DNA of 64,000 nt from Streptomyces sp. V2I9 (lineage in GTDB: Bacteria; Actinomycetota; Actinomycetes; Streptomycetales; Streptomycetaceae), in the NCBI RefSeq assembly GCF_030817475.1, contig NZ_JAUSZJ010000002.1, positions 3,388,001 to 3,452,000 of the forward strand, in the 5' to 3' direction. Each line of letters opens with the position of its first letter. Within the stretch, counting starts at the first letter, position 1. The notes under the pieces were generated by a model that saw only the letters and a list, made by a program, of their open reading frames with translations, had not been told where the DNA came from and searched no databases. Below, in pieces: positions 40,559 to 44,409 of the stretch. The position numbers and the translations under genes were made by a program.

Positions 40559-41281
40559 TCAGAACTCGTCGGCACCGTTGCGCAGCTGGGGGGTCCAGTA
40601 GCCGGTGGCCCACTTCTGCGGGTTGACGGACAGGCCCTCGGCGGCCGGGGACTTCACGACCGCCATGCCGCCGCCGTTGGCCTTCAGCGTGACGGTGAAC
40701 TCCTTCACCGTCTCGGTGTTCTCCTTGCGGCCGCCCTCGGACATCCGCACCGCGGCGTAGGCGGACTGGCCGGGCTCCAGGATCACCGGGGCCGCCGGCT
40801 TGCTCTTGGCGACGGGCGGGACGATGCCCCGCGCGTTGTCCAGGAAGTGGATGTGCGGGTACTCCTTCATCTCGCAGCTCGCGCCGGAGGTGTTCTTCGC
40901 GGACAGCGTGAGGTGGGTGTAGGGCGGGCCGTCCTGGCGCTCGGCGGTGATCGTCAGACCCTTGGCGGTGCAGAGGGGGGTGTTGCCCGTGGTGCCGCTC
41001 CCGCGCTGCTTGGCCTGGCCCGTGCCGCCGCTCTGCTTGACGGTGCCCTGGCCCTCGCCGCCCTGCTCCGCAGCGTCCTGGTCACCGCTCTGCTCCGCGC
41101 CGTCCTGCTGGGTGTCGGTGCTCTTCGCGACGGGGGCCGTGGAGGCCGAGGCGGCGGAGCTGTCCGTCGTACCGGCGGACTTGGCGCCACCGTCGTCGCC
41201 GTTGCACGCGGTGAGCGAGAGGGCGAGGGCGGCGGTGGCCGCGGAGACGAGTACGGCGGTGCGGTTGCGGTAGGTGCGCAT
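40559..41281 (-). CDS. DUF4232-domain lipoprotein
   Basis: The 240-residue product has a lipoprotein signal (AALALSLTACNGDD, lipobox Cys at about 26), then a low-complexity Ser/Gln/Gly/Glu spacer. From about residue 100 there is a DUF4232-like beta domain (CTAKGLTITAERQDG through YWTPQLRNG) with two cysteines. It should be anchored to the outer face of the membrane. Its biochemical role is not known. CGGGGAT lies 7 nt before the ATG. It follows the SARP gene on the same strand, and four 11-bp-spaced heptamer-like elements sit about 90-130 nt upstream. Confidence 0.82.
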   Translation of the reverse strand: MRTYRNRTAVLVSAATAALALSLTACNGDDGGAKSAGTTDSSAASASTAPVAKSTDTQQDGAEQSGDQDAAEQGGEGQGTVKQSGGTGQAKQRGSGTTGNTPLCTAKGLTITAERQDGPPYTHLTLSAKNTSGASCEMKEYPHIHFLDNARGIVPPVAKSKPAAPVILEPGQSAYAAVRMSEGGRKENTETVKEFTVTLKANGGGMAVVKSPAAEGLSVNPQKWATGYWTPQLRNGADEF

Positions 41282-41371
41282 GACGATATCCCCGACACGA
41301 GGGGCCGCCTCCGCGTTTTCAGCGGTGAAGCGGCCGGTGAGCTGCTGACAGGAATGAGTCTGTGCGGCCCC

Positions 41372-41411
41372 GCTCACGTTCTGGTGGCGTCCCGCTGACG
41401 TTCGGCTGACG
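41372..41411 (-). promoter_or_regulatory. Four heptamer-like elements at 11-bp spacing, SARP-type operator candidate
   Basis: On the plus strand GCTCACG, GGTGGCG, GCTGACG and GCTGACG begin at 41372, 41383, 41394 and 41405, exactly 11 bp apart. SARP proteins bind direct heptamers with this spacing. The site lies between the SARP gene and the lipoprotein gene. Confidence 0.55.
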
Positions 41412-41478
41412 CCTCGCACTTCCTCGCGTCGGCCGGGCCGCACCCTTCCCCACCTGCGGTGGCGCCGGCCGGCACGGC

Positions 41479-44409
41479 TCAGGGTGCGGTGGCGAGCCGG
41501 AGCGCGGACCGTTCGTGGCGCACGCGGTAGGAGGGCTCCGCGGAGACGCGCAGCAGGACCTCCAGTGCCCGTACCGCGCCCTCGTCGTAACCGGCCTGCT
41601 CCGCCTCCCGCGCGGCCCGGTCCAGCAGCCGGATGCCGTCGTCCTCCTCGCCGAGCGCCAGACGCGCCTCGCCGCAGATCGCCAGCAGCAGGGACCGGCG
41701 GGCCGCCTCCTCGTGTTCGGGGCCCAGTTCGAGCGCGGCCCGCGCATCGGCCAGCGCCTCCTCCGGGCGGCGCGCGGTGAGCCGCATCCGCGCCAGGTGC
41801 TGGAGAGCGAGCATCTCGGTGTGCCGGTCCTCCTCACGGCGGGCCAGTTCCACGGCGCGGGCGCAGTTCTCCGACGCGGCAGGCAGGTCGCCCAGCTCGG
41901 CCTGGACGACGGCCAGGTTGACCAGCGCGGTCGCCTCGCCCAGCGGGTCGCCGGCCTCACGGGCGAGCTGCGGTGAGCGCTCCAGCAGGGCGGCGGCCTC
42001 GGCGGTCCGGCCCTCCTCCGTCAGCACCCAGCCCAGCAGCGTGAGCACCCTCGATTCGGCGTACGCGTCCTTCCCGGCGCGGGCCGACTCCAGGGCCAGC
42101 TCCAGCAGGGGCGCCCAGTTGTCCCGTACCCGCCACACCACCTGCGGCCACTGGAGCAGGATGATCCGCCAGGCCCGGTCCTCCAGGCCCGCGTCCCGCG
42201 CTGCCTGGGCGGCCAGCGCCAGGTTCTCGCGCTCGCCCGCCAGCCAGCGCATCGCCTCGTCCCGGTCGGCGAAGTCCCGTACGGCGGTGGGCGGGCGGAA
42301 TCCGTCCGGGAGGACGAAGCAGGGCTCGCCGCCGGGCTCCGCCGTGTCGGCGGCGGCCAGCGCGGTGGCGATGCAGTGGTCGAGCACCCCGGTGAGGGCC
42401 TCGCGCGCGGAGGCCGGGTCGAGACCACGGGCGTAGAGCCGCACCAGGTCGTGCAGGACCCACCGGCCCGGCGCGGTCTCGGCGACGAGGTGGGCGGCGG
42501 CCAGCCGCTCCAGCGCGGCCGACGCGGCCACCGGGTCCGTCCCCGCCAGCGCGGCCGCCGCGTACGGGTCGAAGTGACCGCCGGGGTGGTGGCCGAGCCG
42601 CGCGAACTGATGGACGGCGTCCGGCGGCAGGTGCTGGACGGTGAGCCGGAGCGCGGCCGCGACGCCGGTGTCGTCCACGTCGAGGCAGGCCAGGCGGCCG
42701 CGTTCGTCGGCCAGTTCGTCGGCGAGGGCGGCCAGCGTCCAGCGCGGCCGCCCCGCCAGTCGGGCGGCGGTGACGCGCAGCGCGAGCGGCAGCCCGCCGC
42801 AGAGTTCGGCGAGGCGGCGGGCCGCCACCGGTTCGGCGAGCACCCGCTCCTCCCCCAGCACCCCGGCGAGCAGCGCCGTGCCGTCGTCGGCCTCCAGCGT
42901 GTCGAGCGGGACGGGCCGGGCGGCGTCCGAGGCGATCAGCCCTTCCAGCCGGTGCCGACTGGTGACCAGGGTGACGCAGTCCGTGCCGCCCGGCAGCAGC
43001 GCCCGGACGGTGGCGGAGTCGCGGGCGTTGTCGAGGACGACCAGCAGCCTGCGCCGGCCGGTCAGCGAGCGGAAGAGCGCGGCGGCGGCCGGGGCGGACT
43101 CCGGGACCCGGCGCGGCGGGACGCCGAGCGCGAGCAGGAACTCCCGCAGGACGTCGACGAGCACGGGCTCACCGGCCTCGCTGAATCCGCGCAGGTCGGC
43201 GAAGAGGCGGCCGTCCGGGAAGAGCGCGTCGTTGCGGTGCGCCCACTGGAGCGCCAGCGCGGTCTTGCCGACCCCAGCCGGCCCGGTGACCAGGCAGACG
43301 GGCGACTCACCGGCCGCCGCCCGGCTGAGCGCGCCCAGCTCGGTGGTACGCCCGTGGAAACCGCGGGGCGCGCGGGGGAGCAGGTCGACGGGGAGCGGGT
43401 CGGCGGGGTGCACCGCGGGCGGTGCGGCGGGCCGCGAGCGCTGTGCGGCGGAGGAGGCCCCCGTCGTGCCACCGCCACCGGCGGTCGTCCCCGCCCCGGT
43501 GGCGGGCGGGCCTCCTGCGGGTCCCCCAACGGTTCCGGGGGCCTCAGCGGTTCCAGGGGCCCCACCGGTTCCGGGTGCCGCGGCGGCTCCGGGGGATCCG
43601 GCGGAGGGGGCCGCCGACCCGGACGCGGCGGTGGTGCGGCGGGCGGCCGGGGCGGCGGACGAGGGCGCCGGGTCGCCGCGCAGGATCAGCGCGTACGCGT
43701 CGGCGAGCTTGGGCCCCGGGTCGATGCCCAGCTCGTCGGCGAGGAGCCGCCTCGTCCGGTGGAAACGGTCCAGGGCCTCCGACTGGCGTCCCGCCCGGTA
43801 CAGCGCCAGCATCAGTTCGGCGGCCAGCGACTCGCGCAACGGGTGCGCCGCGGTCTCCGCCGCCAGCAGGGCGGCCGCCCGGTGGTGCTCGCCGAGCGTC
43901 CCGTACGTACGGGCCAGCAGCTCGACCGTCGCCAGCCGCGATTCCTCCAGGGAGTGCGCGGCCGCCCGGAGCGGCGGACCGGCGAACGCACCGCTGAGGG
44001 CCGGGCCCTGCCAGAGCGACAGGGCCTCCTTCAGCATCAGCACGGTGTCCGCCGGGCTGCGCTGCTCCCGCGCCAGCATCAGCAGTTCCTCGAACCGCTG
44101 CGCGTCCACCAGCGTCTCGGGGACCCGCAGCACGTACGCGTCCCCCAGGGTGGCCAGCTCGACCCCGTACGCCTCCGCGTCGGCGTCCACCAGCAGGGCG
44201 CGCAACCGCGACACATGGCCCTGGATGACACTTCGGGCCTGGAGCGGCGGGGTGTCGTCCCACAGGGAGTCGGTCAGCCGGCCGATGGAGACCGGAGTGT
44301 TGGCGGACAGCAGCAGTGCGGCGAGCAGGCTGCGCCGCTTGGCGGGACCCAGGGGCAGCGGTCCGGTGTGCGTCTCGACGGCGACCGTACCGAGCAGCCG
44401 GAACTCCAC
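41479..44409 (-). CDS. SARP/AfsR-type regulator with BTAD, NB-ARC and TPR domains
   Basis: The 976-residue protein begins with an OmpR-type DNA-binding domain (FRLLGTVAVETHTGPLPLGP) and a bacterial transcription activation domain to about residue 250 (LADELGIDPGPKLADAYALI). A Gly/Ala/Pro linker follows, then an NB-ARC ATPase with P-loop GPAGVGKTALALQW near residue 380. The rest is an alpha-helical TPR region. This is the AfsR layout of pathway-level antibiotic regulators. No biosynthetic cluster is adjacent, so it may act at a distance. The start is the GTG at 44409, 7 nt after AGGAG. Confidence 0.9.
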   Translation of the reverse strand: MEFRLLGTVAVETHTGPLPLGPAKRRSLLAALLLSANTPVSIGRLTDSLWDDTPPLQARSVIQGHVSRLRALLVDADAEAYGVELATLGDAYVLRVPETLVDAQRFEELLMLAREQRSPADTVLMLKEALSLWQGPALSGAFAGPPLRAAAHSLEESRLATVELLARTYGTLGEHHRAAALLAAETAAHPLRESLAAELMLALYRAGRQSEALDRFHRTRRLLADELGIDPGPKLADAYALILRGDPAPSSAAPAARRTTAASGSAAPSAGSPGAAAAPGTGGAPGTAEAPGTVGGPAGGPPATGAGTTAGGGGTTGASSAAQRSRPAAPPAVHPADPLPVDLLPRAPRGFHGRTTELGALSRAAAGESPVCLVTGPAGVGKTALALQWAHRNDALFPDGRLFADLRGFSEAGEPVLVDVLREFLLALGVPPRRVPESAPAAAALFRSLTGRRRLLVVLDNARDSATVRALLPGGTDCVTLVTSRHRLEGLIASDAARPVPLDTLEADDGTALLAGVLGEERVLAEPVAARRLAELCGGLPLALRVTAARLAGRPRWTLAALADELADERGRLACLDVDDTGVAAALRLTVQHLPPDAVHQFARLGHHPGGHFDPYAAAALAGTDPVAASAALERLAAAHLVAETAPGRWVLHDLVRLYARGLDPASAREALTGVLDHCIATALAAADTAEPGGEPCFVLPDGFRPPTAVRDFADRDEAMRWLAGERENLALAAQAARDAGLEDRAWRIILLQWPQVVWRVRDNWAPLLELALESARAGKDAYAESRVLTLLGWVLTEEGRTAEAAALLERSPQLAREAGDPLGEATALVNLAVVQAELGDLPAASENCARAVELARREEDRHTEMLALQHLARMRLTARRPEEALADARAALELGPEHEEAARRSLLLAICGEARLALGEEDDGIRLLDRAAREAEQAGYDEGAVRALEVLLRVSAEPSYRVRHERSALRLATAP
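43531..43595 (-). repeat. 18-nt repeats encoding the SARP linker
   Basis: Copies beginning GGTTCCGGGG, GGTTCCAGGG, GGTTCCGGGT and GGCTCCGGGG start at 43531, 43549, 43567 and 43585. They encode Pro-Gly-Thr steps of the linker between the BTAD and NB-ARC domains. Confidence 0.75.

Follow-up and report, generated by a model that had tools for sequence, protein, structure and literature searches.

SARP regulators have been studied chiefly as activators of antibiotic production. Their operators consist of direct repeats at 11- or 22-bp steps, and the large SARPs carry an N-terminal OmpR-type DNA-binding domain and a BTA domain, followed by NB-ARC and TPR. According to PMC10936776, some 8 bp separate the 3' repeat of a SARP operator from the -10 element, and Thr88 and Arg92 of AfsR make base contacts. 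In the AfsR-afsS system of S. coelicolor, one of the closest described relatives of the locus analysed here, a large SARP with NB-ARC and TPR has its target, AfsS, in tandem next door, preceded by 11-bp direct repeats of two CGTT(T/C)ATC units; the consensus of this afs box is CGTT(T/C)ATCGNN in PMC10972967, where AfsR is also said to occur in most Streptomyces. The PimR operator of pimM in S. natalensis contains more than two heptamers at 11-bp steps, with one monomer per unit (PMC5930380), PimR being a SARP-LAL regulator of an antibiotic cluster. The PHO box of Streptomyces PhoP is also built of 11-bp direct repeat units with seven conserved bases, the heptamer being GTTCACC (PMC4415409), and it is read by a response regulator instead of a SARP.

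Our locus lies in the window, by which we mean the whole 64-kb stretch of Streptomyces DNA that was analysed. The first-pass annotation had reported four heptamers in exact 11-bp register between a SARP gene and a DUF4232 lipoprotein gene, and this is what we found, with starts at plus-strand positions 41372, 41383, 41394 and 41405. Some details had to be corrected: conservation extends over an 8-mer unit, RCGTCAGC, followed by 3 bp, and the functional strand is the minus strand, which is the coding strand of both flanking genes. Read in that direction, the array is GCGTCAGC-CGA-ACGTCAGC-GGG-ACGCCACC-AGA-ACGTGAGC, then 9 bp, then CAGACT. The features of the locus are, in minus-strand order:

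41479..44409, minus strand: large SARP of 976 aa with BTAD, NB-ARC and TPR, the predicted activator
41405..41412, minus strand: putative operator unit 1 (distal), GCGTCAGC, conserved in the alignment of related promoters
41394..41401, minus strand: putative operator unit 2, ACGTCAGC, conserved in the same alignment
41383..41390, minus strand: putative operator unit 3, ACGCCACC, conserved in the same alignment
41372..41379, minus strand: putative operator unit 4 (promoter-proximal), ACGTGAGC, conserved in the same alignment
41357..41362, minus strand: -10-like hexamer CAGACT, 9 bp after unit 4, the putative -10 element
41344..41350, minus strand: TGTCAGC block, just 3' of the -10 and close to the predicted transcription start
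40559..41281, minus strand: coding sequence of the DUF4232 lipoprotein of 240 aa (Pfam DUF4232, E 8.8e-21), the predicted target

The SARP gene stops at 41479 and the lipoprotein start codon, ATG, stands at 41281; as both genes run along the minus strand, the order is regulator, operator, target, like that of afsR-afsS. A further correction is that, with the two genes in tandem, the array falls in the promoter region of the lipoprotein gene, downstream of the SARP gene. On comparative sequence evidence, the array is real and conserved, a putative SARP-type operator of a known kind; very probably it is the operator-promoter at which the large SARP would activate the DUF4232 lipoprotein gene, in an afsR-afsS-like arrangement belonging to a small regulon of mainly surface proteins.

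The regulator has the domain order of a large SARP: BTAD, NB-ARC and TPR_12 scored above the Pfam cut-off and Trans_reg_C just below it. Its nearest solved relatives are the AfsR structures 8hvr, 8k60 and 8jke, followed by EmbR. The genome holds 13 SARP-domain genes, among them L088, which we take to be AfsR from its sequence and the afsS-like small gene downstream, and which is separate from the window SARP. The recognition-helix motif QGHVS was present in 64/64 rows of SARP orthologues, which count duplicate loci and reach as low as 62% identity. Arg follows the motif in 61 of these rows; the motif occurred in 0/12 of the other SARP genes of the same genome. In an alignment counted by hand, Thr88 and Arg92 of AfsR correspond to Gly64 and Arg68 of the window SARP. 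The lipoprotein has, by eye, the lipobox LTAC, and its start codon is backed by orthologues. An AlphaFold2 model gave a confident beta-rich C-terminal domain, with pLDDT mostly >80 from residue 101; comparison of the model with the PDB yielded weak matches (best Z 6.2, Foldseek E 0.042), so we assign no function from it. In the literature searched, including PMC10936776, PMC5930380, PMC4415409, PMC10972967, PMC8780764 and PMC8914203, we recognised no description of this SARP or its targets, and DUF4232 is not named anywhere in it.

Apart from this pair of genes, the same genome also has AfsR and afsS. The afsS promoter in L088 reads CGTTCATC-ATT-CGTTTATC, 9 bp, CATGGT and fits the published CGTT(T/C)ATCGNN. 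The array does not fit this unit; the comparison indicates that the putative operator shares the geometry of the afs box with a different sequence. Its four units are spaced at 11 bp, and the proximal one ends 9 bp from the inferred -10, in keeping with SARP operators generally and by the same count as at afsS, where the -10 is likewise weak. In contrast to the two CGTT(T/C)ATC units before afsS, there are four RCGTCAGC units before a DUF4232 lipoprotein gene. Across 25 aligned related promoters the four units stay in register, and A2 and T6 of CAGACT are invariant in 25/25. The GTCAGC of the TGTCAGC block is invariant in 20/20 aligned near-clade promoters, a count made after 8 rows, mostly duplicates, had been removed by hand, among them L059/L118, one promoter that lacks the block. 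The block lies 28 bp from unit 4 and hence out of the 11-bp register; transcription would start at about 41350.

A plain three-unit pattern proved unspecific in a search of the genome (4 places vs 3 for a reversed control), and we therefore used a site profile in its stead, trained on 25 related promoters with the window excluded. The window array scored 51 bits under this profile, with E 8.6e-15 in a search of the window (runner-up E 0.044) and E 9.7e-13 in a search of the whole genome. In the 7.16 Mb there were two strong sites, the lipoprotein array and one of 38.4 bits before a GDSL-lipase gene:

G000:C2:2944832-2944885, minus strand: second strong profile site (L219), before a GDSL-lipase/FG-GAP protein; one 10-bp step by eye

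The GDSL-lipase/FG-GAP protein has at least 960 residues and, by eye, a signal-like N-terminus. The third-best site of the genome (18.6 bits, E 0.013), 345 bp before an ORF that is presumably MerR/HspR-like, was rejected as a target.

We then asked how far the array is conserved. A lipoprotein search across 295 genomes of the genus gave 53 matches in 51 genomes (E<=1e-25), and all 53 loci were read. Three or four in-register units were found at 43 of them, 12 of which had no SARP-like gene upstream within the fetched stretch. The first-pass annotation had held that the lipoprotein may be a direct SARP target, and that loss of the array from orthologues keeping both genes would speak against this; all 31 tandem SARP-lipoprotein pairs retain it (31/31). 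Ten loci had no array, seven of them beside a divergent NB-ARC regulator and three (G230, G065 and G131) without such a neighbour; in G230 and G065 the SARP lies apart from the related lipoprotein gene that is without the array. Array scores were at least 5.4 at the 43 loci vs at most -9.7 at the ten, a wide gap, the maximum of 400 shuffles being 0.6; the matrix was built from 24 arrays, taken from among the 53 loci and the named loci, so that near relatives score high by construction. A SARP group at greater distance, with 50-63% identity in the part that matched, stood outside it. Among the 13 named loci the array is kept in 11. At L042 and L043 the SARP is present and the local lipoprotein and array are both missing; elsewhere these two genomes have another DUF4232-like lipoprotein (family assigned by eye) with an array.

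The array also follows the SARP from genome to genome. The 12 loci that have the array and no SARP in tandem come from 12 genomes, each with a SARP match. Eleven of these genomes were searched, and each contained one orthologous SARP domain, 68-88% identical, which in G282 adjoins the lipoprotein in convergent orientation and in the other 10 lies elsewhere; in the twelfth, G081, the SARP is in tandem with another copy of the lipoprotein. Among 150 Streptomyces genomes, with cut-offs of E<=1e-4 for sites and E<=1e-50 for SARP matches, 35 had both site and SARP, 4 the site only, 7 the SARP only and 104 neither (p 9e-23, with shared ancestry left in). The site survey used stricter filters, by which weak sites were lost, and the two surveys were taken to cover the same 150 genomes from the same n and the same handles where listed (91 and 88 being unlisted). 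Since the training genomes match by construction, we also give the count without these 15, which was 20, 4, 7 and 104 in the same order (p 2e-14, shared ancestry again left in); with SARP matches restricted to at least 60% identity it became 18, 6, 4 and 107. The sites of the 4 site-only genomes are weak (26.6-30.8 bits), and several SARP matches of the 7 SARP-only genomes are just 44-60% identical and perhaps not orthologues. Taken together, array conservation, co-occurrence with orthologues of the SARP and promoter geometry give good support to the lipoprotein gene as a predicted direct target. Counting against it are the 11 discordant genomes, the array-free lipoprotein genes of G230 and G065, the poor specificity of the three-unit pattern, and some profile sites before unexplained genes.

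The loci with divergent neighbours amount to a natural domain swap:

L115, L116, L119-L123: relatives of the DUF4232 lipoprotein, encoded divergently from XRE-type NB-ARC regulators; array absent

All seven neighbours carry an XRE-type HTH_31 DNA-binding domain and NB-ARC (below the cut-off in one), mostly with TPR, and have no SARP domain; the array is absent in 7/7. The neighbour in G016 nevertheless retains an NB-ARC/TPR half with 62% identity to the corresponding half of the window SARP. On this evidence the putative reader of the array is the SARP domain and not the sensor half. No SARP match at E<=1e-50 was found in G016, G003 or G131.

Could the array be a chance similarity in a G+C-rich intergenic stretch? 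The mutual similarity of its units (33/42) is the highest in the window at period 11, the next separate place reaching 30. Periods 10, 13 and 14 however gave maxima of 36, 36 and 33 in the window, and periods that are multiples of 3 gave 34-42, so that self-similarity by itself is no proof of an array. Within the window the register stands out only mildly, and it is the comparative evidence that decides: conservation across 43 loci, together with just two strong profile sites in 7.16 Mb, refutes chance, to which we give a negligible probability. The position of the array downstream of the SARP stop codon would also suit a transcribed RNA element or a terminator of the SARP gene. This is highly improbable, since the array is present before lipoprotein genes that have no upstream SARP, an Rfam scan gave no match near the gathering score, and scans for sigma-70 promoters and terminators gave nothing useful and no terminator-like site.

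Two further explanations accept a protein-binding site and assign it to another regulator. Because PHO boxes have the 11-bp period in common with the array and AfsR and PhoP are known to compete, the first-pass annotation had considered cross-regulation by PhoP possible. Using the S. coelicolor heptamer GTTCACC and 600 shuffles per p value, we found a weak fit of the two best units (8/14, p 0.40), below that of the two-unit afsS control (11/14, p 0.008); all four units gave 15/28 (p 0.037) and the other strand 16/28 (p 0.03), again a weak match. The units differ from the heptamer at G1, T2 and C6, positions 4-5, inside its TCA core, are the most variable among the pooled units, and the array tracks the presence of one SARP. 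Cross-regulation by PhoP is conceivable but draws no solid support from these comparisons, and we consider a PHO box, or a site shared by PhoP and the SARP, a very unlikely identity for the array. AfsR, or another of the 13 SARP-domain proteins of the genome, might instead be the main regulator, given that the 11-bp step, the position relative to the -10 and the core are shared with afsS. Against this, the afs box CGTT(T/C)ATC departs from the array unit in its positions 1-3, afsS comes out of the profile search as a non-site, and the window SARP has Gly (by hand count) in place of the base-contacting Thr88. Moreover, genomes without the SARP have no site above 30.8 bits, the presence of AfsR in them being taken from the literature. 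A main role for AfsR or another SARP is accordingly quite unlikely, and the window SARP is the preferred regulator.

How might the window SARP work at this promoter? Its SARP domain would bind the 11-bp units as side-by-side monomers, and the proximal pair could stand in for the -35 contact, as happens with AfsR in its complex. The SARP would in this way help RNA polymerase to use the poor -10 CAGACT, which is the mechanism of AfsR at afsS. The two distal units may add cooperativity, and the NB-ARC/TPR half may gate activity in response to a signal.

Acting in trans, the same SARP probably has a small number of further targets, most of them surface or secreted proteins; in this genome the candidate is the GDSL-lipase/FG-GAP protein. 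Over 150 genomes the profile found 56 sites, of which 37 precede an orthologue of the lipoprotein or another DUF4232 gene (22 of the 41 non-training sites). Lipoprotein matches follow 25 of the 56 (two at one G096 promoter), and 15 of these 25 trained the profile. Among the other 31, 12 stand before a Pfam DUF4232 gene, 1 before a lipoprotein-like gene without Pfam match, 4 before GDSL-lipase proteins (one also PI-PLC-X), 2 before chondroitinase-B-like proteins, 1 before PIG-L, 1 each before a SARP, LuxR, MDMPI_N, CorA and formyl-transferase/ECH gene, and 6 have no convincing downstream gene; position and third-position G+C guided the choice of the first downstream ORF, which may be mistaken in some cases.

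As read from these comparisons, three features mark the operator as a variant: its natural units number four, its box is not that of AfsR, and its predicted targets are mainly surface or secreted proteins rather than antibiotic genes. One scenario, which we offer tentatively, is that an AfsR-like SARP lineage of Streptomyces left antibiotic control and now governs, by means of a four-unit operator, a small regulon of the envelope (DUF4232 lipoproteins, GDSL-lipase, chondroitinase-like proteins). The sensor half, NB-ARC/TPR, and the lipoprotein might then have stayed together as a durable module, in which the DNA-binding half was swapped between SARP and XRE and the promoter changed along with it; the lipoprotein may in turn act back on the sensor. 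An AfsR-like SARP that is widespread and has a sharply defined, near-unique operator and a predicted lipoprotein target would be a clean system in which to examine how SARPs bind more than two units, and it suits the study of box specificity vs AfsR and of NB-ARC/TPR sensing; the paired SARP and XRE versions provide a natural domain-swap experiment.

Individual sites in other genomes gave two minor observations. In two genomes, sites L190 (G031) and L216 (G122) stand before chondroitinase-B-like beta-helix proteins. In G065, whose lipoprotein gene is without the array, a site of 51.8 bits (L217) stands before a formyl-transferase/enoyl-CoA-hydratase ORF.
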